From Micromonospora sp. WMMD1120 (GTDB lineage: Bacteria; Actinomycetota; Actinomycetes; Mycobacteriales; Micromonosporaceae), in assembly GCF_029626235.1 (NCBI RefSeq), contig NZ_JARUBO010000005.1, forward strand, positions 2,388,501-2,452,500: 64,000 nt of DNA, written 5' to 3'. Shown piece after piece: positions 20,383-31,136 of the stretch. A program made the position numbers and the translations under genes. Each line of letters starts with the position of its first letter. The first letter of the stretch is position 1. A model generated the notes under the pieces. It was not told the DNA's origin. It was given only the letters and a program-made list of their open reading frames with translations, and made no database searches.

Positions 20383-21186
20383 TCAGGCGGTGCTGGCGGC
20401 GCGGGTGCGGCGGTGCCGCCCGTACCAGGCGATGCCGATCGCCACACCCACCCCGACCCCGAGTGCCGCTGCGGCCACCGGAACCGCCGGCCGCTCCCGC
20501 AGGCGTCGACCCAGCGGGATCGGGTGCCGGAACTCCAGCACCGGCCAGGCGTTCTCCGAGGCCAACTTGCGCAGCTGGCGATCCGGGTTGACCACGCTCG
20601 GGTGGCCGACGCACTCCAGCAGCGGGCGGTCGCTGTACGAGTCGGAGTAGGCGTACGAATCGGCGAGGTCGTAGTCGCGGACGGCGGCCAGCTCGGTGAC
20701 CGCCTCGACCTTGCTCGGCCCGGCCGCGTAGAACTCGACCTCGCCGCTGTACCGGCCGTCGGTCACCGTCATCCGGGTGGCGATCACGTCGGTCACCCCG
20801 AGCAGCTCACCGATCGGCCGGACCATCTCCTCGCCGGACGCCGAGACCAGCACCACGTCCCGCCCGGCCGCCTGGTGCTCCTCGATCAGCGCGGCGGCCT
20901 CGGCGTACACATAGGGGTTGATCAGCTCGTGCAGCGTCTCCGCGACGATCTGGCGGACCTGCTCCACCTGCCAACCCTTGCAGAGTGCGGCCAGGTAGTC
21001 CCGTGTTCGGGCCATGGTCTGCTCGTCGGTGCCGCCCAGCCGGAACATCAGCTGCGCGTACGCCGACTTGACCACGTCACGCCGAGTGATCAACCCGTCC
21101 CGGTAGAACGGCCGACCAAACGCCAGAGCGCTCGACTTGGCGATGACGGTCTTGTCCAGATCGAAGAAAGCGGCACTTCGGCCCAC
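20383..21186 (-). CDS. HAD-IB family hydrolase (SerB-like phosphatase), membrane-anchored
   Basis: A 267-residue protein with all HAD motifs: D9-L-D11-K-T (motif I), VLVSASGEE (II), K in GPSKVEAV (III) and YSDSYSDRPLL (IV). This is the HAD-IB subgroup close to phosphoserine phosphatase, but the true substrate is unknown. A C-terminal helix (VPVAAAALGVGVGVAIGIAWYG) with a basic end anchors it to the membrane. In mycobacteria the homologue adjoins ssd with a 6C RNA between; here that order is kept but interrupted by an island. A TAGACT box eight bases before the GTG suggests a leaderless transcript. Confidence 0.85.
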   Translation of the reverse strand: MGRSAAFFDLDKTVIAKSSALAFGRPFYRDGLITRRDVVKSAYAQLMFRLGGTDEQTMARTRDYLAALCKGWQVEQVRQIVAETLHELINPYVYAEAAALIEEHQAAGRDVVLVSASGEEMVRPIGELLGVTDVIATRMTVTDGRYSGEVEFYAAGPSKVEAVTELAAVRDYDLADSYAYSDSYSDRPLLECVGHPSVVNPDRQLRKLASENAWPVLEFRHPIPLGRRLRERPAVPVAAAALGVGVGVAIGIAWYGRHRRTRAASTA

Positions 21187-21384: not shown

Positions 21385-21513
21385 TTCACAACCTCGACAA
21401 AGACCAGACCCTCGGCGGTTGCACCCCCCGTGGCCGCTGAGTGGTTCGGCTCGACCCCCCCGGAGCCGAACCTTCGACGACCCCCGTCTCCCCCCGACGG
21501 GGGTCGTCCCTTT
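21385..21513 (+). ncRNA. 6C small RNA (three C-loop hairpins)
   Basis: Three consecutive hairpins each expose a run of six or seven C in the loop: 21411-21441 (12 pairs including G-U, loop ACCCCCC), 21443-21472 (GGTTCGGCTC/GAGCCGAACC, loop with seven C) and 21476-21508 (13 perfect pairs, loop TCCCCCC) followed by CCTTTG, probably the terminator. C-rich loops are the definition of the actinobacterial 6C RNA (Rfam 6C), which in Mycobacterium binds G-rich sites in mRNAs. The position beside a HAD phosphatase gene, and on the ssd side of it, also fits. The 5' end is approximate; no clear -10 box was found. The C runs set the strand as plus. Confidence 0.85.
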
Positions 21514-21514
21514 G
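21489..21514 (+). repeat. Left direct repeat (putative attL core) within 6C RNA 3' end
   Basis: A 26-base sequence from TCCCCCC to CCCTTTG, covering the loop and 3' arm of the last 6C hairpin. It is repeated at 24216-24241 with a single G-to-A change. Confidence 0.7.
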
Positions 21515-21537
21515 CGCCGTGAGCACTCCGCCGCAGA

Positions 21538-22038
21538 TCACAGGTCATCTGCGTCGCCGTCGAGCAGGCTCCCCGAGGGCGTTTCTCTGGTCGGAGGCAG
21601 CAGAGAGGCAGCAGAGCCGTTGAACGTCTCCAGGACGCGGGCGGCGTAGTCGTCCGGGGTGTGGGTGTAGCGGTTGAGAGTCCTCGACGCCTGTTCGTGG
21701 CCCATCACCCGCTGCACCAGGTTAACCGGAACGCCGTCGGTGACCAGCCAGGTGGCGTAGGCGTGCCGCAGATCGTGGAAGCGCATCCCGCCGGAAGCCT
21801 TGGCCGCCAGGCAGGCGACGGCCTCCCGTTCGGTGGTGAACTCAGCCGACCACTCGATGCCCTCTCGATCGGGCCACGTGGCGCGGTACCGATGCGGACC
21901 GGTGTTGGCGACCTGGCCGAGCAGACCAGCGCGGACGAGCGATGGCAACCAGACCGGACGGCGGAAGTTCGACCGGCGCAGTAGGCGGCCTACCTTGTCG
22001 CGAAAGACCAGATCACCTGGCGGACGCGTGTCGCACAT
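21538..22038 (-). pseudogene. Tyrosine recombinase (integrase), C-terminal fragment
   Basis: About 166 residues covering only the C-terminal half of the catalytic domain. The second active-site block H-D-L-R-H (MRFHDLRHAYATW) and the final block GHEQASRTLNRYTH with the nucleophilic Tyr are present. The first catalytic Arg and the N-terminal core-binding domain are missing; the upstream sequence (22039-22501) is GC-rich and does not continue the protein in any frame I can follow. Typical integrases of this group are about 380-420 residues. The gene is therefore inactive unless complemented. Its 3' end faces the left repeat 24 bases away, the usual position of int beside its attachment site. 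Confidence 0.8.
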
Positions 22039-22501
22039 CAGCCGACGGAGGACAGCCGGCCGCCGGCCGGCGTGGGAGGACTTTCTGTACGTCTATCAAG
22101 GCGGCCCGCAACGGGCCGCACGCGCCGCCGCCTGGGCGCGCGTCCGTCGCTCCGCTGGCGCTCCGACTCCGGCCACGCAACACGGCCCGCCGGCTGGCGC
22201 GGAGAGCGGAAAGCCCAGGGGCCGCCGCCATAGCGCGAGTCCCTGCCGGCCGTGGTGGGGATGCGGCGCGGAGGATGCGGGGCCGCCCCTCCGACCTCAA
22301 GGGCGCTTCGCGTCGCTGCGCGACGGCCCTGCGGGCCGCCCTTGACCCCGGAGCCTCTGCGACCCCTCGGGCCGGCGTTGCCGGCAGGCGGGGGCCTGCC
22401 CGTGATGCTCGCGCCGCATTCCCACCACGGCCTCATCGCGCGGCCCGGTCGACTCAAGCAGCGTTCGTCGTCAAGGATTGCTTGACGTGGGTGCCGCGCC
22501 T
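22039..22501. other. 463-base gap with no supportable gene
   Basis: GC-rich sequence with many short palindromes of the GCGGGCCGCCC kind. Frames on both strands are Arg/Pro/Gly-rich, as expected for non-coding high-GC DNA. It should have contained the N-terminal half of the integrase gene; that segment appears to be replaced or decayed. Confidence 0.5.
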
Positions 22502-23182
22502 TCAGCCCGGGTTGCTGTCGTCGGAAGGCTCGTTCTCCGCGCTTGACCTGGGCGGAACGTCGAACACACTGCTACCTCTAGTGTCGATCTTCTCAGCCTG
22601 GTTGAGGACTTCAAGCAGTGACTCGACGACCTCGATGAAGTCCAGGGCTTGAGCCTCCGTGAGATTGTCTGATGGGCGGTGCACGGCAAGGTTCCGGAGA
22701 CGACGAACAGCGTCGAACGCTCTGAAGGTTCTTTGGCTGATGACGCCATTTACCAACAGCGTCTGAACCTGCGCATAAAGCCCTGGCCGGTATGTCTCGA
22801 TATCCAGTGCCTGGCAGACCTCATTGACCCTGACCTCTAACAGCTTGGCAGCTTTGAAGATCGCGGCAGTTGGATCTATAGAGGCTGTAAGACGAAGAGT
22901 TTCAGCCTGAGAGCGAACCTCCTCATCCGGCTGCTCCACGCCCAGACCAGGATCCGGGTCAATCTCCTCATCTACAGCAATCTGGGCCTCTAGGGTAGTC
23001 CTGTTCCATTCCGCCTCGAAGGGTCCCGCTTTGATCCGGCTAAGACTCGTGCCGATGAGGTCAGACACATGCTTCCGTAGCACCACGACTAAAATCAGGA
23101 CCGTCAGTGGCCAGATGGCGGCGGGTATGACCTTCGCGAGGAACTCAAGCCAGCTCACGGTTTCGCACCGTATCGCGGTCAT
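22502..23182 (-). CDS. Membrane-anchored hypothetical protein (DUF4145-like C-terminus)
   Basis: A protein of about 226 residues. One membrane helix near the N-terminus (IPAAIWPLTVLILVVVL) precedes a cytoplasmic helical domain with acidic segments. The C-terminal part (FRAFDAVRRLRNLAVHRPSDNLTEAQALDFIEVVESLLEVL) resembles the R-N-x-x-x-H plus long helix pattern of DUF4145-type domains found in defence and mobile-element proteins. Codon use is less G/C-biased than the flanking housekeeping genes, consistent with transfer. The ATG at 23182 is chosen because the longer frame (to 23524) adds a non-hydrophobic, compositionally odd head; the start is uncertain. Function unknown. Confidence 0.6.
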   Translation of the reverse strand: MTAIRCETVSWLEFLAKVIPAAIWPLTVLILVVVLRKHVSDLIGTSLSRIKAGPFEAEWNRTTLEAQIAVDEEIDPDPGLGVEQPDEEVRSQAETLRLTASIDPTAAIFKAAKLLEVRVNEVCQALDIETYRPGLYAQVQTLLVNGVISQRTFRAFDAVRRLRNLAVHRPSDNLTEAQALDFIEVVESLLEVLNQAEKIDTRGSSVFDVPPRSSAENEPSDDSNPG

Positions 23183-23942
23183 GCAAGCAACCCAGAGCAG
23201 GACGCGCGGAGAGCGTGCTGCTGTCCACGGTCCACACGTTGAGTCTGTCGCACATCGCTGGGTGACCAATTGGGTGACGACGGGCGCGAGCGGCTCCGGA
23301 CGTCCGTGGAACCCGGTGGACTGTTGGACGGCCCGGCTGTGCCGCCAGCGAAGCTCACCGACGTTCGGTAGTTCCTTTGGGACGAAGGGGTCAAGCTCCG
23401 CCAGGAGCCGGTCGACGGAGCTTCGCATCCGTAGGGGCATCGGGATGGGCGCAGCCTTTCGGTCGTTGAACCTCCGTGCGATATCAACGCATTTGAGAGG
23501 GTAGCCCAACGTGATTTGCGTCACTCTGACTTGTTGTCTTGGCCCGGCTTCCTACACGCGCGCCCGCGCGCGCACCCGCGCGCGCGTCGGGGCGCGCGCC
23601 CGCTATTAGATTGTGCAAGGTGCCGCTCCCGGCGCTTCGGTTGCTAAGCAACAAGGCTTCGGGGGCATTCGTCGGCCTGTTTTCGAGGCTTCCGATTGGA
23701 ATTCGGGTGACGCGCCGGACACGCCGGCCAACTTGACCCTTGCTCACGTGTCGGCTGAGACTGATGTCGACCTCGGCGAGTTACAAGGGTGAAGTTCACT
23801 CAAAAGCAAGCGACGCCCGGGGCCTAGACCGGGCGTCGCTGGTGACTCTCCACTCAAGTGCGGCTACACAAGGGGGTGTCGTCAATTGGCGACGGTATCA
23901 GGGGCGCAAGCAGGGGACAACGGTGGTAGGGACCGACACGCG
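23183..23942. other. 760-base region without a clear gene; contains a CG-alternating tract
   Basis: No convincing coding frame. Positions 23554-23602 are almost pure alternating C/G, a sequence able to form Z-DNA. A strong hairpin lies at 23810-23839. Base composition is otherwise lower in GC than the flanks, fitting foreign origin. Confidence 0.5.
23810..23839. terminator. Terminator-like hairpin inside the element
   Basis: GCGACGCCCGG (23810-23820) pairs perfectly with CCGGGCGTCGC (23829-23839), loop eight bases. On the minus strand it is followed by TTGCTTTTGAG, so it could stop minus-strand transcription, but no gene feeding into it was identified. Confidence 0.45.
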
Positions 23943-24041
23943 GTGATCCTGGCCTACCTGAAGACAGCGCCCGGGGTGTTGGGCGGGGTCGCGGCGACGC
24001 TTGCCGCCCTGACGGGATTGTTGACCATGGTTCTGAAATAG
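23943..24041 (+). CDS. Possible 32-residue single-helix membrane peptide
   Basis: GTG-initiated frame of 32 codons encoding a peptide with a short polar head (MILAYLKTAPG), a hydrophobic helix (VLGGVAATLAALTGLLTMVL) and a final Lys. A perfect 11-bp hairpin begins seven bases after the stop codon, as for a compact transcription unit, and this is the main support. The ribosome binding site is weak (TAGGGA, rather distant). Small membrane peptides of this size occur as type I toxins or as membrane regulators, but no antisense RNA or partner could be identified. The call is tentative. Confidence 0.35.
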   Translation: MILAYLKTAPGVLGGVAATLAALTGLLTMVLK

Positions 24042-24047
24042 GTCGTT

Positions 24048-24075
24048 AGGAGGGGCGGTGATGGCCGCCCCTCCT
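24048..24075 (+). terminator. Terminator after the possible membrane peptide
   Basis: AGGAGGGGCGG (24048-24058) pairs perfectly with CCGCCCCTCCT (24065-24075), six-base loop. Confidence 0.6.
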
Positions 24076-24215
24076 ATGCCCCTTGCGGCGAGGCAGCGAG
24101 AAGGCAGCGCGAGCTTTGATACGGGCCGAGCCCGGACGTCAGGCGACGACGACCGCGACCCGCTCGTCGACGCGATGCGCCACCGCCTGGCACTGACCGA
24201 CAGCTTGCGTCCGCA

Positions 24216-24241
24216 TCCCCCCGACGGAGGTCGTCCCTTTG
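24216..24241 (+). repeat. Right direct repeat (putative attR core)
   Basis: Identical to 21489-21514 except A for G at 24228. Upstream sequence cannot form the 6C hairpin here, so this is not a second RNA gene. Confidence 0.7.
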
Positions 24242-24311
24242 TCGGCGTGTGCGCTACCGGGCAGGTGGCGGCGTGTCCGACTGATCAACTGGTCGGGGCG
24301 GCGGCGATTAG

Positions 24312-24542
24312 TCAGCGGATCGCCAGCTTGCTCGCTCGAATCAGGAATCGTGCCTGGGAGCCGCGACGGCCCGACGGGGAGAGCCTGACGCCCTCGATCC
24401 AGATCCACTCATCCTCGGGAGCGCGGTTGGCCACCAGTCGTACCCCGGTCACCCACAACCGCACCGGCCCGTCCGACGGCAGGAGGCGATCCGCCGCGTC
24501 TATGTCCAGCACTGCTCCCAGTCGTACCCGAACGTCAAACAC
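24312..24542 (-). CDS. Small hypothetical protein, paralogue of its upstream neighbour
   Basis: A 76-residue protein with the pattern RLWVTGVRLVANRAPEDEWIWIEGVRL followed by R-x-FLIRASKLAI. The adjacent upstream protein has LWLRVTSVCDKPTYDGWVWLTGYSI and RREVF at equivalent places, so the two are diverged duplicates of one small beta-rich family that I cannot name. GTG at 24542 follows AAGGGGG by four bases and overlaps the upstream stop by eight bases, better than the ATG at 24569. Similar small proteins often sit beside HTH-TPR regulators in actinomycetes, as here; their function is unknown. Confidence 0.6.
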   Translation of the reverse strand: MFDVRVRLGAVLDIDAADRLLPSDGPVRLWVTGVRLVANRAPEDEWIWIEGVRLSPSGRRGSQARFLIRASKLAIR

Positions 24543-24897
24543 CGCGCCCCCTTGTGCGTGGCGCCGCATTGGCGGGAGACGGCGCGTTCTTGGTCGTGTG
24601 CCGTTGAATCTGGAGGCCGGCGGTCTGCGCGAAGACCTCCCGCCGCGTCAGAGCCTTGCCGGTAATCGGTTCGATGGAATAGCCCGTCAACCACACCCAG
24701 CCGTCGTACGTCGGCTTGTCGCAGACCGAGGTCACCCGCAGCCACAGCGTTCGGTCGCCGCCGAACTGCACTGACGCCCGGCCGTCGATCAGCACCAGGT
24801 CGCCTGGAGCGGGCACACCTGGCCGACGGGGCCTGGCTGAGCAAGTCGGGCTATTAACGGGTGGTCGTTCAGGTCGCGTTCCCGTGCGGATAGCCAT
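24535..24897 (-). CDS. Small hypothetical protein (paralogue pair, upstream member)
   Basis: A 120-residue protein with a basic Pro-rich head, the core APGDLVLIDGRASVQFGGDR, TLWLRVTSV and DGWVWLTGYSIEP, and a basic tail. The W-V-W/L strand and surrounding spacing match the next gene, showing a shared small fold. It begins the two-gene unit on the minus strand, divergent from the HTH-TPR regulator at 25159. That divergent arrangement suggests control by the regulator, which is inference. No catalytic motif is seen. Confidence 0.6.
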   Translation of the reverse strand: MAIRTGTRPERPPVNSPTCSARPRRPGVPAPGDLVLIDGRASVQFGGDRTLWLRVTSVCDKPTYDGWVWLTGYSIEPITGKALTRREVFAQTAGLQIQRHTTKNAPSPANAAPRTRGRGV

Positions 24898-25158
24898 CGA
24901 GTCAGCCTCAGCAGGTCGCCGCGCGCCTAGAGCCCGCGCAGTTTAGGCGCAACCGGCACGCGATGGTGTGGACCCGCACTACGCCAGGTGTGATCGCTCC
25001 GACGGCTGTGCGGGTGAGGGCGTACCTCCAGCCCACGTCCAAGCAGGATGGGCAGTTGGTCATAGCGTTTAGCCCCGTCATGCACACAGGTTGTGGCACT
25101 CACCGGCCAGCTCCCCGGAAAATTTTTCCGGGGTCGGAACTGACCAAAGGGAGACGGT

Positions 25159-26388
25159 GTGCCGGTGCGCGGAAGAACCAACCACCTGACCATCGGCGAA
25201 CGCGTCGCCTGGTACCGCTACCGACGCGGCCTATCCCAGGAGGTGCTGGCCGGACTCATCGGTCGGACCGCCGACTGGTTGGGTAAGGTCGAGAACAACC
25301 GGATCGAGCTGGACCGGCTCTCCGTCATCAAGTCCCTCGCCGAAGTCCTGGACGTCTCCCTCGGCGAACTGCTCGGCGAACCCTCGTTGCTCGACTGGAA
25401 CGGCGACAGTGGCACCGCGACAGTCCCCGCCGTCCGTGCCGCCCTGATGGACTACCACGGCCTCGGCCCCTTCGGAAGCGGCACGGACGCGGAGCCAACG
25501 AGCGTCGCTGTGCTCAGGAAGGATGTGTGCGCCCTCTGGGATGCCTACCAGGACTCCCGCTTCGGGTACGTGACAGGCCGTCTGCCTGGGCTGCTACACC
25601 GCGCCCAGGCCGCCGCCGACCACCATGACGGCGACGACCAGGACCAGGCTCGTCGGCTTCTCGGCTTGGTGTATCAACTCGCCGCTACCCAGCTCACCAA
25701 ACTTGGAGAGAGCGACCTGGCATGGATCGCCGCCGACCGCGGCTTAGCCGCGGTCCGACCCACGGGTGATCCTCTCGTCACCGGTTCCCTGTTCCGGTCC
25801 GTCGGACATGCCCTGCATGCCAACGGCCGCTACAGCGAAGCTGTACGCCTCACCGTGGATGCCGCCAGGTACCTTGAACCCCACCTCACGCACGCCACAC
25901 CAGCGCTGCTCTCCGTCTACGGGACGCTGTTCCTGTCCGGTTCGATGGCCGCAGCCCGCTCCAACGACGCCCCCACCACCCGTACCCTCCTCGCCGCCGC
26001 CGACCAGGCCGCCAGCCGACTCGGGGCCGACGCCAACCACCTCTGGACCGCGTTCGGCCCGACCAACGTCGCCATCCACCGCGTCGCCACGGCCGCCGAG
26101 CTGGGCGATCTACAGGTCGCCATCGACCTCGGCCCGCGCGTCGATACCTCCGGACTACCGATGGAGCGCCGGGCACGGCACGCCCTCGAAGTCGCCCGCG
26201 TCTACAGCGCGTGGAACCGTGTTGACGACGCCCAGGCCGTCATCCTTGACGCCGAACAGATGGCACCCGAGCAGGTCCGCCACCACTTCCTCAGCCGCCA
26301 ACTCGCCCTGACCTGGCTACGCCGCCAGCGCGGCAAGCCCTCGGCCGAACTGGTCGGCCTGGCCCAGCGACTCAAGGTGCTCGACTGA
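25159..26388 (+). CDS. XRE-type HTH regulator with TPR-like sensor domain
   Basis: A 409-residue protein. Residues ~10-70 are a Cro/C1-type helix-turn-helix (IGERVAWYRYRRGLSQEVLAGLIGRTADWLGKVE), followed by about 300 residues of paired helices resembling tetratricopeptide repeats (HLTHATPALLSVYGTLFLSG... and RRARHALEVARVYSAWNRVDDA). This architecture is typical of actinobacterial regulators, many beside NUDIX or small-molecule genes. GTG start after AAAGGGAGA. The NUDIX gene follows 24 bases later but has its own -10 box. Ligand and targets are unknown; the divergent small-protein pair is the closest candidate target. Confidence 0.8.
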   Translation: MPVRGRTNHLTIGERVAWYRYRRGLSQEVLAGLIGRTADWLGKVENNRIELDRLSVIKSLAEVLDVSLGELLGEPSLLDWNGDSGTATVPAVRAALMDYHGLGPFGSGTDAEPTSVAVLRKDVCALWDAYQDSRFGYVTGRLPGLLHRAQAAADHHDGDDQDQARRLLGLVYQLAATQLTKLGESDLAWIAADRGLAAVRPTGDPLVTGSLFRSVGHALHANGRYSEAVRLTVDAARYLEPHLTHATPALLSVYGTLFLSGSMAAARSNDAPTTRTLLAAADQAASRLGADANHLWTAFGPTNVAIHRVATAAELGDLQVAIDLGPRVDTSGLPMERRARHALEVARVYSAWNRVDDAQAVILDAEQMAPEQVRHHFLSRQLALTWLRRQRGKPSAELVGLAQRLKVLD

Positions 26389-26400
26389 ACCTAGTCCATC

Positions 26401-26406
26401 TAGGCT
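26401..26406 (+). promoter_or_regulatory. -10 box of leaderless NUDIX gene
   Basis: TAGGCT, six bases before the GTG at 26413. Confidence 0.5.
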
Positions 26407-26412
26407 GCCCTG

Positions 26413-26886
26413 GTGACGGCCAACGAGATGCCACCTGTGGCAACCCCACGGGTTGCCGCCGGTGCCCTCTTCTTCGACGACGAAGGCCGCGTGCTCCTCG
26501 TACGCCCGAGCTACAAGAAGCACTGGGACATCCCCGGCGGCTACGTCGAACCAGGCGAGTCGCCCCGAGCCGCCTGCATACGCGAAATCCAAGAGGAACT
26601 GGGCCTTACCCCGGCAGTTGGACCGATGTTGGTCGTGGACTGGGCACCCGCCGAACACGAAGGCGACAAGCTCCTCTTCATCTTCGACGGCGGATCACTC
26701 GATACCGAGCAGGAGCGCAACATCCACTTCACGGACGGCGAACTCACTGAGTGGCGCTACGTAAGCGCAGAGTCCTTGGACCAGCACGGCCCACCCCGAC
26801 TCGCCCGTAGGATCCGCACCGCTATCGCAGCGCGCAATAAAGGCCTGTCCGTCTATGCCGAACACGGCAGAGGGTTGGCTCGCTAA
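26413..26886 (+). CDS. NUDIX hydrolase
   Basis: A 157-residue protein with a complete NUDIX box: GYVEPGE, seven residues, then REIQEELGL (pattern G-x5-E-x7-REUxEExGU). It hydrolyses a nucleoside diphosphate linked to some moiety; the substrate cannot be read from the sequence. The HWDIPGG lead-in is standard. It starts 24 bases after the HTH-TPR gene and has its own leaderless promoter, so it can be expressed independently. This regulator-NUDIX pair recurs in actinomycetes. Confidence 0.88.
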   Translation: MTANEMPPVATPRVAAGALFFDDEGRVLLVRPSYKKHWDIPGGYVEPGESPRAACIREIQEELGLTPAVGPMLVVDWAPAEHEGDKLLFIFDGGSLDTEQERNIHFTDGELTEWRYVSAESLDQHGPPRLARRIRTAIAARNKGLSVYAEHGRGLAR

Positions 26887-26952: not shown

Positions 26953-27486
26953 TCAGTAGAGCCACCGGTCGAGCACCCCGGGCCAGAAGTGGGTCGTGTG
27001 GTCGCCGTGTCCGAACGCGGGTGGGTCAAGGTCCCTGATGCGCTCCAGCAGGTCGGCGAGTTCCGCGAGCGCCTGCTCCTCGGCCTGGCAGTCCTCGTCC
27101 CAGCGGTCGATGACTGTCGAGCTGGTCAGCCAGGCGCCGACCAGGTGCAACGAAGACAGCCAGTGGACGATCGTGGAGTTGACGAACCCGACGCTGCCGT
27201 CCGGCGACCAGATCCGCACCGCACCGGTCCCCGGCTCGGCGCCGTACACCCAGCTCGGGTCCTCGGAGTGCGCCAACCGGTACATCGTCGGCTCCGCGCC
27301 GAATGACACCGCGCCGACGAGATCATCGATCAGGGGTACGCCAGCGGAGACCAGCACGGCCTTCTGCGATTCGGGAAGTCGCCACGCCGCCACCTCCAGC
27401 TCGGTCGCGCGCACCACCCGCTCGCTGCCGGCCCAGGCCGTGAGCGCCTCGAACGTTGGCGGCAGCGAAAGATCATCGACCGGCAC
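26953..27486 (-). CDS. SUKH-4-like immunity protein
   Basis: A 177-residue protein resembling the SUKH-4 immunity family: LPPTFEALTAWAGSERVV, LPESQKAVLVSAGVPL, then YRLAHSEDPSWVYGAEPGTGAVRIWSPDG-like strands and VNSTIVHWLSSLHLVGAWL. SUKH proteins neutralise secreted or contact-dependent toxins by direct binding. The frame is open to 27783, but a TACCCT -10 box seven bases before GTG 27486 points to a leaderless start there, giving normal family length. No toxin gene is next to it. It is divergent from another SUKH-superfamily gene. Confidence 0.7.
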   Translation of the reverse strand: MPVDDLSLPPTFEALTAWAGSERVVRATELEVAAWRLPESQKAVLVSAGVPLIDDLVGAVSFGAEPTMYRLAHSEDPSWVYGAEPGTGAVRIWSPDGSVGFVNSTIVHWLSSLHLVGAWLTSSTVIDRWDEDCQAEEQALAELADLLERIRDLDPPAFGHGDHTTHFWPGVLDRWLY

Positions 27487-27493
27487 CCGGATG

Positions 27494-27499
27494 AGGGTA
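27494..27499 (-). promoter_or_regulatory. -10 box of leaderless SUKH-4-like gene
   Basis: TACCCT on the minus strand, seven bases before the GTG at 27486. Confidence 0.5.
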
Positions 27500-27603
27500 G
27501 TCCGGGCAGGGCCCTTTCGTCGGCGGTAACCTGCCGCCAGGCAGACCAAGGACATCGCCGGCCGACGACTGTCCGCGGGCAGCGGCCGGGCTGACCGGCG
27601 ACG

Positions 27604-27609
27604 GATACT
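27604..27609 (+). promoter_or_regulatory. -10 box of leaderless SMI1/KNR4-like gene
   Basis: GATACT, six bases before the ATG at 27616. Confidence 0.4.
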
Positions 27610-27615
27610 GCCCGG

Positions 27616-28227
27616 ATGCGCGAAGACGACGTGTTCCGGGGCATCGCCGCCCGCGTGGCGGCCCGCGAGTACAGCGACGACCTCTACATCCACCCTGGCT
27701 CCCTCGACGCGGACGGCACGTGGGTGGTGGCTCCCTCGCCCGGGACGACCCGCTGGCTGGTGGAACGCGGGTCGCCGGAACACCTCGCCGCGCTGGCGGC
27801 CGGCGCCGTCGACCCGCTGCCACCGCTCGAACCCGCCACTCCGGAAGCCGTGAACGAGGCTGAGCGGGTGCTCGGGTATCCGCTACCGCCGCTGCTGCGA
27901 CGCCTCTACCTGGAGGTCGCCAACGGCGGCTTCGGCCCGGTGCTGGGCGTCGCGGGCGGGTGCACCGACGATCTCGGGCGTACCGCTGTCGATCGGCTCA
28001 ACTCCCGCGATCCCGCCGGCCTGCTGCCGCTCGCCTACTGGGGATGCGCGATCTACTCGTACGTCGACTGTGCGGGGCGGGGAGCGATGACGTGGGGCTT
28101 CGACCCCAACTCGGGCCTGGGCGAAGACTCGTTCTACGCGGAAGGGATCTCTCTCGTGGACTGGCTCGCCGGGTGGCTCGACGGCTCGCTCGAGCAACCG
28201 CGCCTCTATCCCGACGAGCGCCGGTAG
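27616..28227 (+). CDS. SMI1/KNR4 (SUKH-1) family protein
   Basis: A 203-residue protein. The core at about residues 75-190 has the SUKH-1 pattern: an acidic-to-hydrophobic helix ATPEAVNEAERVLGYPLPPLLRRLYLEVANGGFGP, then a loop ending with the Asp/Gly-rich GFDPNSGLGEDSFY and DWLAGWLDG. SUKH-1 proteins include bacterial immunity proteins against nuclease-type toxins, and also housekeeping homologues. The divergent neighbour is another SUKH-type gene, and no toxin or polymorphic toxin gene is recognised nearby, so an orphan-immunity role is plausible but unproven. The transcript looks leaderless. Confidence 0.75.
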   Translation: MREDDVFRGIAARVAAREYSDDLYIHPGSLDADGTWVVAPSPGTTRWLVERGSPEHLAALAAGAVDPLPPLEPATPEAVNEAERVLGYPLPPLLRRLYLEVANGGFGPVLGVAGGCTDDLGRTAVDRLNSRDPAGLLPLAYWGCAIYSYVDCAGRGAMTWGFDPNSGLGEDSFYAEGISLVDWLAGWLDGSLEQPRLYPDERR

Positions 28228-28824
28228 AGCGCGAACGGCCCCAGTACCCCTCTGTCGCTGCCCAGGCTGCTGCAAAAGCCGAGCGCGCCGGCGGACAGGC
28301 GCAGGTCGGTGAGCGCGTTGACGACGAGGGTTTCCCGAACTGCACGATCAGGTTGAAGGTGAAGGCTTCCCGGCAGATCACCCCAGGGTGGCGTTCGGTC
28401 GCCACGAGGCGTCCACCTTCCTTGGTGCACCTGGTCGCGGCCGCGCGGCCGTCGGTGGTGGTCCGACGTCCGGCCTCGCCTCGCGCTTTGTCGCGGTGCC
28501 GGAGCCGGCGCAGGGTGATCGCGGCCACCGTGTAACCGAGCCCGGTGACCAGAGGGTGACCCGCCACAAGGAGCGCCGCGGTCAGGTTCCGGGTGACGAG
28601 CGGTAGGCGAAGTTCGAAGGTCGCCTGCTTCGGTGGTGGCCTCGTCCTTCCTGCGACAACCGGTTGACCTGCGGAATCGCTCGCGCCCGTAGCAGATCAA
28701 CTGCCTGCGGGGGCGTTGTCCACAGGCGACCGGGTTGTCCACAGGCGAGGCGATCGGGGAGGCCCTCGGTGCGGATTCCGAGCACTGTCGGCGGCATACC
28801 AGAGCCCGACCGCTGGAGGCCGCG
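28228..28824. other. Gap of ~600 bases before ssd; no gene supported
   Basis: Open frames on the minus strand (for example starting at 28567 or 29045) overlap neighbouring genes antisense and show no recognisable protein. The gap ends with two TTGTCCACA boxes and presumably the tad operon promoter. Confidence 0.45.
28716..28743 (+). promoter_or_regulatory. Two DnaA-box-like nonamers upstream of ssd
   Basis: TTGTCCACA at 28716-28724 and again at 28735-28743, each followed by GGCGA, 19 bases apart in the same orientation and 82 bases before the ssd start. The nonamer equals the Streptomyces DnaA box consensus. Whether DnaA binds here is untested. Confidence 0.5.
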
Positions 28825-29928
28825 ATGCCACCCCGTACCTCGGTTCCGCCGATCCGCCGGCTCCCGCTGGTCGTCACCGGCGACGACGACCTGCTCGACG
28901 ACGTGCTCCGACTCGCGGCCGCCGGCGGGGTCGAGGTGGAGCTCGCCCGCGATGCGGCGGCCGCCCGCACCCGCTGGCTACCCGCCCCGTTCGTGGTGCT
29001 CGGCGCCGACCAGGCGCAGGCGTGCCTCCGTGCCCGCCTGGCCAAGCGGCCCAGGCTGGTGCTTGTCGGCCGAGCGGGTCAGCTCGACCCCGGGTGGCAG
29101 ATCGCCGACCTGATCGGGGCCGAGCACGTCGCCGTGCTGCCCGCCGCCGAGTCGTGGCTCGTCGATCGGTTCGCCGAGCACGACCCGGACCGCCCGGACG
29201 GCGTCGGCGCCCGAATAGTCGCCGTCTTCGGCGGTCGCGGCGGCGCGGGTGCGAGTGTGTTCGCCGGTGGTCTCGCCGTCACCGCCGCCCGGACCCGGCT
29301 GCGGACACTGCTCGTCGACGCCGACCCGCTCGGCGGGGGCCTCGACCTCGTGCTCGGTTGGGAGCAGTTGGAGGGTCTGCGTTGGCCGTCGCTCACCGCT
29401 GCGGACGGTCGGGTGGACGCCCCGGCGCTGGTGCGGGCGCTGCCCAGTCGGGGTGACCTGGTGGTGCTGTCCTGGGATCGGGGCGAGATGCTCGCCCTGC
29501 CGGCGGCGGCGATGGCGGCGACCGTCGACGCCGCCCGTCGTGGGCGGGACTTCGTGGTCATCGACCTGCCCCGACAACTGGACGACGCGGCGGTGGTGGC
29601 GTTGCAGGCGACCGACCACGCGTTCGTCGTCGTGCCGGCGGAGCTGCGTGCCACAGCGGCGGCCGCCCGGGTGGTGGCCGCCGCCGCCCCGCACTGTGCC
29701 GCGCTCTCGGTGGTGGTCCGTGGGCCGGCCCCGGGTCGGCTACGCGCTACCGAGGTGGCCCGCGCCCTCGGCCTACCCCTGGCCGGCACGTTGCGCCCCG
29801 AGCCGGGGCTCTGCCGTGGGCTGGAGCGGGGCGAAGCCCCGGCCGCCGCCGGCAAGGGCCCGCTCGCCGCGCTGTGCCAACGGATCGTCGCCGACCTCAC
29901 CGGCGCGCCGGCGACGGGCGCGGCATGA
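28825..29928 (+). CDS. ssd: Septum site-determining protein Ssd (MinD/CpaE-like ATPase)
   Basis: A 367-residue protein with an N-terminal response-regulator-like region and a C-terminal MinD/CpaE-type P-loop domain. The deviant Walker A reads FGGRGGAGASVF, with S in place of the usual Lys/Thr, followed by TLLVDADPLGGGLD and VVIDLPRQLDD. Actinobacterial Ssd (Mycobacterium Rv3660c) is linked to septum placement and heads tad pilus operons, where CpaE-like proteins place the pilus machine. The ATG at 28825 is preceded by GGAGG; longer starts lack this. The ATGA overlap couples it to tadA. Confidence 0.88.
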   Translation: MPPRTSVPPIRRLPLVVTGDDDLLDDVLRLAAAGGVEVELARDAAAARTRWLPAPFVVLGADQAQACLRARLAKRPRLVLVGRAGQLDPGWQIADLIGAEHVAVLPAAESWLVDRFAEHDPDRPDGVGARIVAVFGGRGGAGASVFAGGLAVTAARTRLRTLLVDADPLGGGLDLVLGWEQLEGLRWPSLTAADGRVDAPALVRALPSRGDLVVLSWDRGEMLALPAAAMAATVDAARRGRDFVVIDLPRQLDDAAVVALQATDHAFVVVPAELRATAAAARVVAAAAPHCAALSVVVRGPAPGRLRATEVARALGLPLAGTLRPEPGLCRGLERGEAPAAAGKGPLAALCQRIVADLTGAPATGAA

Positions 29929-31136
29929 GCGCCCGGCCGGAGGACGGCACTCTCGCCGCTCGGGTACGGCAGCGGATCGCCGCCTCGGCTGACCCGGTGA
30001 CGTCCGCGGCGATCGTCTCCGCGGTACGGGCCGAATCCACCGCCGCGGTTCTCGGGGACACCACTGTGCTACGGATCGCCGACCGGGTGCGTGACGACCT
30101 CGTTGGCGCCGGTCCGCTGGCGCCGCTGCTCGCCGACCCGGAGGTGACCGACGTCCTCGTCAACGGCGTCCGGGTCTGGGTCGACCGGGGGTCGGGGCTG
30201 CACCAGGTCGCCGTTCCGGTGGGCACCGTGGAGGACGTCCGCCGGTTGGCGCAGCGCCTGATCGCCGGTGCCGGGCGGCGGCTCGACGACGGCTCGCCGT
30301 ACGCGGACGCGCGGCTGCCCGACGGCACCCGACTGCACGCCGTGTTGCCTCCGGTGGCGACCGACGGGCCGTACCTGTCCCTGCGGACGTTCCGGCACCG
30401 GCCCTACACCCTCGACGAGCTGGTACGTCAGGGGACCGTGCCGCGACCGGTGGCGCCACTGCTGTCCGCCGTCGTCGCGGCACGGTTGGCGTACCTGGTC
30501 ACCGGGGGCACCGGCTCGGGCAAGACCACCCTGCTCAACACACTGCTGGGAATGGTGCCGGCCACTGAACGGATCGTGGTGGTGGAGGACGCCGCCGAGC
30601 TGCGCCCGGGGCATCCACACGTGCTGGGGCTTCAGGCGCGTACCGCCAATGTGGAGGGCAGCGGCGTGGTCAGCCTCGCCGACCTGGTCCGCCAGGCGCT
30701 GCGGATGCGCCCGGACCGCCTGGTGATCGGGGAGTGCCGGGGCGGTGAGGTGGTCGACCTGCTGGCCGCGCTGAACACCGGTCACGACGGGGGCGCTGGC
30801 ACGCTGCACGCCAACACACCGTCCGACGTGCCGGCCCGGTTGGAGGCGCTGGGGATGTTGGGCGGGCTGCCGCGCGCCGCGCTGCACGCCCAGGTGGCCG
30901 CCGCGCTACAGGTGCTCTTCCAGGTACGACGTGGCGACCGGGGTCGTGTCCTGGAGTCGGTCTGTCTGCTGCTGCCCGAGGGGCCGGAACGGCTGGTGAC
31001 AGTGGTGCCCGCCTGGGTGCGTGGCAAGGGGCTCGGGTTGGCCGCGCGGGCACTCGGAGCGTTGCTGCGCGAGCGCGGGGTGGCGGTGCCGCCGATCCTC
31101 AGCGCCCCGTGGCCGGGATCGGCGGGACCGGCATGA
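29925..31136 (+). CDS. tadA: Pilus assembly ATPase TadA/CpaF
   Basis: A 403-residue secretion ATPase of the type II/IV family. Walker A GGTGSGKTTLLN, the Asp box VVVEDAAELR, Walker B-type RPDRLVIGECRGGEVVDLL and the His box GTLHANTPSD are all present. It powers assembly of Flp/Tad pili at the inner face of the membrane. Its ATG overlaps the ssd stop, and its stop overlaps the tadB start (both ATGA), so the operon is translationally coupled. Length and motifs are complete. Confidence 0.95.
   Translation: MSARPEDGTLAARVRQRIAASADPVTSAAIVSAVRAESTAAVLGDTTVLRIADRVRDDLVGAGPLAPLLADPEVTDVLVNGVRVWVDRGSGLHQVAVPVGTVEDVRRLAQRLIAGAGRRLDDGSPYADARLPDGTRLHAVLPPVATDGPYLSLRTFRHRPYTLDELVRQGTVPRPVAPLLSAVVAARLAYLVTGGTGSGKTTLLNTLLGMVPATERIVVVEDAAELRPGHPHVLGLQARTANVEGSGVVSLADLVRQALRMRPDRLVIGECRGGEVVDLLAALNTGHDGGAGTLHANTPSDVPARLEALGMLGGLPRAALHAQVAAALQVLFQVRRGDRGRVLESVCLLLPEGPERLVTVVPAWVRGKGLGLAARALGALLRERGVAVPPILSAPWPGSAGPA

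Follow-up and report, generated by a model that had tools for sequence, protein, structure and literature searches.

The 3' half of the 6C small RNA gene as a probable attachment site of integrative and conjugative elements in Micromonospora

The question raised by this locus is whether an integrative element has used the gene of the 6C small RNA as its attachment site. The locus lies in the window, by which we mean the whole 64,000-nt stretch of DNA analysed, from Micromonospora sp. WMMD1120 (GCF_029626235.1, NZ_JARUBO010000005.1, positions 2,388,501-2,452,500, forward strand). Micromonospora is a genus known for antibiotics. Coordinates below count from window position 1, and comparison genomes and loci are coded in the manner of G001 and L038, respectively. 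A sequence-only reading of the window had proposed that an element carrying a replacement RNA end had integrated at the 3' end of 6C, and knew of no account of 6C as an integration target. No such description was found in the full-text literature that was searched either, from which most subscription papers are absent, so that an earlier report is possible, nor in the accessible text of PMC9569102, PMC3218068, PMC4046766, PMC8190616 and PMC8371274. The comparisons reported here indicate that, in Micromonospora and its close kin among soil actinobacteria, 6C very probably serves as the bacterial attachment site (attB) for one clade of actinomycete integrative and conjugative elements (AICEs), with a hairpin loop as the putative overlap for strand exchange and with two remnants of such elements in tandem in the window.

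A duplicated half of 6C and its empty sites

A covariance model search placed a complete 6C RNA gene at 21440..21512 on the plus strand (RF01066, full model 1-75), with a score of 77.9 bits against a gathering score of 47. Its 3' half forms the putative attachment site. Hairpin 2 of this RNA (21476..21508, plus strand), delimited by sequence and folding and by its geometry relative to that of tRNA-targeting relatives, has a 5' arm at 21476-21488, a 7-nt loop TCCCCCC at 21489-21495, the proposed overlap, and a 3' arm at 21496-21508. As the sequence-only reading had described, a 26-bp repeat, TCCCCCCGACGG[G/A]GGTCGTCCCTTTG, is present at 21489-21514 and again 2.7 kb downstream at 24216-24241, with one mismatch between the copies. 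Folding showed that the left copy (plus strand), the core of the left attachment site (attL), covers the 7-nt loop of a perfect 13-bp hairpin together with its 3' arm, and that the right copy lacks a matching 5' arm and folds about like its own shuffles (z = -0.73); both points had been anticipated. When the 7.15-Mb genome was searched with a two-allele pattern of the 25-base core, allowing up to 3 mismatches, two places were found, both in the window, and the reversed control gave 0. Since the core is confined to these two places, we rejected the idea that it is a common terminator scattered through the genome, a finding that the earlier reading had named as fatal to its proposal. The minus-strand frame at 21538..22038 (166 aa) encodes the C-terminal fragment of an integrase of the type designated clade A, with 81% identity to residues 250-423 of a complete 6C-type integrase; the C-terminal part of PF00589 alone was matched (profile 121-168 of 172; 47.8 bits versus 27.1), and in the integrases of relatives the domain is complete, identifying them as tyrosine recombinases. 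The frame points at 6C and stops 23 bases from the left copy, close to the 24 bases counted earlier.

In related elements, too, the boundary of the repeat lies at or next to the loop of the hairpin. In attL, the host stem is followed by the loop TCCCCCC and then by GACGGGGGTCGTC, and immediately before the core the far copies have a left flank that is specific to the element and takes one of three forms (GCA, GGC or CTT). The shared block begins at the loop in all 21 distal ends counted, exactly so in 19 and one base into the stem in 2; this set includes the window copy with its one mismatch and leaves out the altered cores of G034, G102 and G124 and the third copy of G148. With the insert removed, three occupied loci aligned continuously with those of relatives through one 6C gene, namely G119 (12.45-kb insert) with G045 (92.5%, 2984 bp), G149 (36.5-kb tandem) with G051 (92.1%, 3532 bp) and G061 (16.1-kb insert) with G129 (81.9%, 3954 bp). 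No integrase match at E 1e-20 was found in G045 or G051, and the integrase matches of G129, among those listed, lie away from 6C. The empty-site comparison suggested by the sequence-only reading therefore gave single-6C alignments in three pairs of relatives (82-92.5%, 3.0-4.0 kb), the window element not being among the pairs. In most other occupied genomes, the DNA past the far copy matches the arm of another element, or no locus among those compared. In the relatives, 6C is thus complete next to the integrase, partial at the opposite end of the element and present once in empty sites, which bears out the proposal that only the distal half of the RNA gene is duplicated and that the element supplies a replacement end.

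Integrases beside 6C and their tRNA-targeting relatives

Integrases beside 6C recur well beyond the window. In a public-genome scan with the window fragment, in which the best 80 of 388 matches were taken and 23 of the resulting 79 loci were examined, 17 of the 19 loci with at least 70% identity have 6C right beside the integrase; in one of the other two the core is present and a contig end cuts the locus (L038), and the second is a short match in a metagenome-assembled genome, located at tRNA genes (L053). In the more distant Jiangella and Catellatospora loci, the integrase is found at tRNA genes. Among 151 genomes of the genus, 6C is a single gene in 150 and gave no match in one, and an integrase at least 60% identical lies within 70 nt of 6C in 40 of the 151, every one facing 6C, among the matches listed (down to about E 2e-33). 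None of the 98 integrases below 60% identity among these matches lies beside 6C, and 76 of them have no 6C within 25 kb. A finer search detected integrase remnants near 6C in 26 of 100 further loci of the genus, mostly within about 350 nt. The 6C-side integrase is also found in two further genera of the same family (G248, G249) and in Plantactinospora endophytica, which may be one of these two. In other families, a hidden Markov model of related integrases, applied to flanks of about 1.5-2 kb, found no integrase at 6C in 68 loci and recovered both control loci. The search for integrases close to 6C elsewhere, likewise suggested at the outset, was thus rewarded within the genus and its near relatives.

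Of the 52 listed matches with at least 60% identity, 12 are exceptions to the 40 at 6C. These include a contig end bearing a core copy (G001), tandem elements (G090 C6 and the second G149 match), a match 349 nt from 6C (G084) and further fragments on the 6C side (G070, G147 C83, G020); the others are weighed below.

In order to place these integrases, a midpoint-rooted tree was built from 41 sequences that were free of stops and had 340 or more aligned residues, in which members of tandem arrays were labelled by the core carried. All 24 6C-type integrases form one clade (support 100/99) beside a tRNA-Ala clade (100/99). The number of target changes on the tree is the minimum possible, 4 for 5 groups, and was reached by 0 of 200 shuffles. 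The simplest reading of the tree is that the target changed once, from a tRNA gene to 6C. On the tRNA side, 20 loci were compared; the repeat was found in 10, a tRNA gene but no repeat in the DNA compared in 6, and no tRNA gene in 4, two of which (L213 and L215) have readable repeats and resemble tandem joints. Among the 12 readable cases there are 5 in which the first base of the repeat is also that of the anticodon loop. At L207, L213, L214 and L215, related integrases lie by a tRNA-Val or tRNA-Pro gene of which the 3' part is present and the 5' part is missing, and each of these loci probably represents the second element of a tandem array at a tRNA gene.

The elements apparently enter at 6C because one of its hairpins resembles the tRNA anticodon arm used by related elements. 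In the mechanism that we propose, the tyrosine integrase would act on two partners, a core in the element of about 25 bp and, in the host gene, the loop and 3' arm of hairpin 2. The recombined 6C gene would retain its own 5' part and receive an equivalent 3' half from the element, by which its function would presumably be preserved. Strands would be exchanged across the 7-nt loop TCCCCCC as the overlap, with each stem arm serving as a core-type integrase site, much as related integrases use the anticodon arm of tRNA genes; the repeat boundary and the 13-7-13 geometry fit this layout, from which the position of the overlap is deduced. The 6C clade would have arisen when one anticodon-arm integrase moved to the 6C hairpin. 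The loop of hairpin 2, read in 137 of the 150 genomes of the genus that have 6C, is 7 nt long in 127, 8 nt in 9 and 6 nt in 1. In other families a 7-nt loop was found in 1 of 68 6C genes, 9 and 12 nt being the commonest lengths there. Within the genus, the loop is 7 nt in all 63 genomes with integrase traces and of another length in 10 of the 74 without traces (Fisher p = 0.0018, ignoring kinship). We consider it fairly probable that an anticodon-arm integrase switched from a tRNA gene to 6C because the 7-nt loop of this family mimics the anticodon arm, that this switch gave rise to a clade of AICEs accumulating in tandem at 6C, and that loop length limits the species that can be invaded.

Two other explanations have to be weighed against a hairpin-borne attachment site. 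Hairpin 2 followed by CCCTTT looks terminator-like, and the repeat might be an ordinary terminator or other repeat with an integrase beside 6C by chance; this is refuted by the mere two copies in the genome, by the recurrence in 40 of 151 genomes (among the matches listed) and by the empty sites. It is also conceivable, though we judge it unlikely, that 6C was chosen as a conserved single-copy gene in a safe interval and is recognized by sequence alone, with a coincidental geometry. The single 6C gene in 150 of 151 genomes agrees with this, as does hairpin 2 itself, which is identical in 121 of 137 genes; since it is nearly invariant, sequence and geometry are inseparable inside the genus. The repeat of tRNA-Val and tRNA-Pro elements with related integrases, however, starts at the same place with respect to a 7-nt loop, that of tRNA-Ala elements nearly so, and the 10 genus genomes in which the loop is 6 or 8 nt long and the stem otherwise identical gave no traces; both points argue against recognition by sequence alone.

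Several observations weigh against 6C as the site of an anticodon-arm type of integrase. The data are sequences alone, and neither excision nor transfer nor strand exchange has been observed; past mobility of the elements is what their distribution suggests. In 7 of the 12 readable tRNA cases the repeat begins 1-3 bases ahead of the anticodon loop. Some integrases with at least 60% identity lie away from 6C, namely G147 C504 and G127 at tRNA-Ala, a 6C-type integrase of G124 located 667 kb from 6C, and two matches on G014 C213 that were not placed at 6C. The association with loop length takes no account of kinship, and since the loop itself lies within the exchanged core, it is no proof of a limit on host range; such a limit agrees with the data. 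The count of core copies is also mixed. At least two copies (whole genome, up to one mismatch) were found in 49 of 151 genomes, 42 of which have an integrase or remnant at 6C, and the remaining 7 fall outside those lists; among these 7, G001 and G014 do have 6C-side integrase sequence on cut contigs, G124 has the displaced integrase, and G002 has a remnant at the DNA level only, clade A right-arm-like DNA after 6C. A second copy without the element, which the sequence-only reading had named as evidence against itself, is therefore confined to G026, G097 and G144, which have a second core copy and no integrase trace at 6C and stay unexplained. Conversely, 24 of the 66 genomes with an integrase or remnant hold a single core copy, which we take to mean that the far end has decayed or diverged.

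The displaced integrase and core of G124 (L181:5512-6427) have a GGC-like left flank and may represent a displaced tandem joint or a secondary site.

Element type and the tandem remnants of the window

The complete element of G148 encodes an integrase (int), an excisionase (xis; TIGR01764, 60.3 bits), a RepSA protein (PF20199, 483 bits), an FtsK/SpoIIIE protein (PF01580, 42.8 bits), and HTH_31 and NUDIX proteins; matches to the NCBIfam equivalog models for RepSA and TraB were below the cut-offs. By this predicted gene set between direct-repeat attachment sites, we assign the 6C element family to the AICEs. A phage or plasmid origin was rejected, the best phage and plasmid integrase relatives all being less than 60% identical, and the one IMG/VR contig with the 19-base pattern was taken as a chance match, the pattern lying inside overlapping reading frames with no 6C match. 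The core-to-core distance is about 1.3 to 22.6 kb in single elements or remnants. In G149 a clade A and a clade B element stand in tandem, 36.5 kb together, and the same A-then-B order is spread across contigs in G090. The 6C element of G119 carries a DNA cytosine methyltransferase as cargo (L155:10953-12254; TIGR00675, 136.9 bits).

As judged from its content, the stretch 21489-24241 of the window is what deletions have left of a clade A element. Between the two cores there are only the integrase fragment, segments common to the interior of larger 6C elements (22052..22441; many elements match by blastn at 79-95% identity over 45-222 bp), and a minus-strand DUF4145-domain frame at 22502..23524 (PF13643, 36.6 bits), probably cargo; the copy has no rep and tra of its own, as an AICE would, and is therefore filed as a remnant. 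A conserved distal arm of clade A elements at 24085..24240 ends in the core, with 75-81% identity over about 150-180 bp to 14 other loci, and in most of these the similarity stops at the distal core of the locus. The right repeat copy (24216..24241, plus strand) has the left flank GCA, as do other clade A ends, and its right flank is like clade B right arms. This resemblance spans 24216-24327 (77-85%, partly through the core itself), and the part beyond the core, 24242..24327, belongs to matches that take in the 25-bp core as well, of 77% over 113 bp with G119 and of 85% over 59-62 bp with G098 and G128. Because a clade A-like end precedes 24241 and clade B-like DNA follows it, the right copy most likely joins the clade A remnant to a second, decayed clade B element in tandem and not to host DNA on the ssd side. 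The interior of this second element would extend over 24325..26870 (83% over 2.4-2.6 kb with G098 and G149b; 87.5% with G028) and includes an HTH_31 gene (25159-26388, plus strand) and a NUDIX gene (26413-26886, plus strand), both by Pfam match. The sequence-only reading thus holds for an element at the 3' end of 6C, but the window copy is an AICE remnant and its right end a tandem joint, not a host junction.

We regard it as improbable that the window instead holds one larger element that runs from 21489 to about 28.6 kb and has a core copy in its interior. HTH_31 and NUDIX genes are also found inside the clade A element of G148, no distal core of the second element was found between 24301 and 28800 of the window, and the clade B right-arm match is short beyond the core, all of which would suit a single element. 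On the other hand, the 155 bp before 24241 match clade A element ends, 24325-26870 is 83% identical over 2.5 kb to the clade B elements of G098 and G149b versus 73-78% over 137-310 bp to G148, and the A-then-B order is preserved whole in G149 and can be made out in G090; these data favor two tandem remnants. At L192 (G121), DNA 87% like window 26116-26867 lies about 30 bp after 6C with no trace of an integrase, probably another decayed 6C element.

The host gene upstream of 6C encodes a HAD-family hydrolase (20383..21186, minus strand; PF12710, 117 bits). Host DNA most likely resumes somewhere before 28735, where a gene for a CpaE-like ATPase begins (28735..29928, plus strand; weak ParA-type Pfam matches), which we take to be ssd and which lies downstream of 6C in most genus loci compared. 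Two SUKH-superfamily frames, 26953-27783 (minus strand) and 27616-28227 (plus strand), with scores of 84.7 bits for SUKH-4 and 22.6 bits for SMI1_KNR4, the latter below the cut-off, are immunity-type genes between the second remnant and ssd and had no match among the relatives' loci compared. A gene for a T2SSE type II/IV secretion ATPase (29874-31136, plus strand, 174 bits) begins within the last part of the ssd-like gene and overlaps it, an arrangement known from tad-type pilus loci.

6C elements among known integration systems

With 6C, a regulatory small RNA would join the RNA genes known as actinobacterial integration sites. It offers a concrete test of loop-and-stem geometry as the basis for the choice of tRNA genes, since the same geometry occurs in an unrelated RNA and integrases follow it. 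The insertions would help to explain the strong variation of the 6C-ssd interval across the genus, and 6C is suggested as a conserved single-copy landing site for Micromonospora integration vectors.

Elements at transfer-messenger RNA or enterobacterial small RNA loci likewise target an RNA gene other than a tRNA gene, and they differ from the 6C case in the RNA, the hosts and the element types. The tRNA-Ala, tRNA-Val and tRNA-Pro integrases of the genus are 50-60% identical to those at 6C, and their repeat begins at, or no more than 3 bases from, a 7-nt loop flanked by a stem, but the stem is the 5 bp of an anticodon arm versus the 13 bp of the 6C hairpin, and the integrases form separate tree clades. 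The 6C elements share int, xis, a RepSA-type rep, an FtsK/SpoIIIE transfer protein, and HTH and NUDIX genes with pSAM2-type AICEs, from which the window copy differs in lacking rep and tra.

According to the accessible text of PMC8371274, the overlap and the core sites of a canonical attachment site have their counterparts in the anticodon loop of 7 bp and the palindromic stem around it; that review concerns tRNA genes, whereas the site here is 6C. Mycobacteria carry whole extra 6C genes on chromosomes and plasmids (PMC9569102, in the text available), a likeness in that 6C RNA is found on mobile or acquired DNA, but these are whole gene copies, and the available text makes no claim of an attachment site. 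The AICEs described in the accessible part of PMC3218068 have direct-repeat attachment sites and tandem arrays, as do the 6C elements; the vast majority of those with tyrosine integrases sit at the 3' end of a tRNA gene, whereas the site of the 6C elements is a small regulatory RNA.

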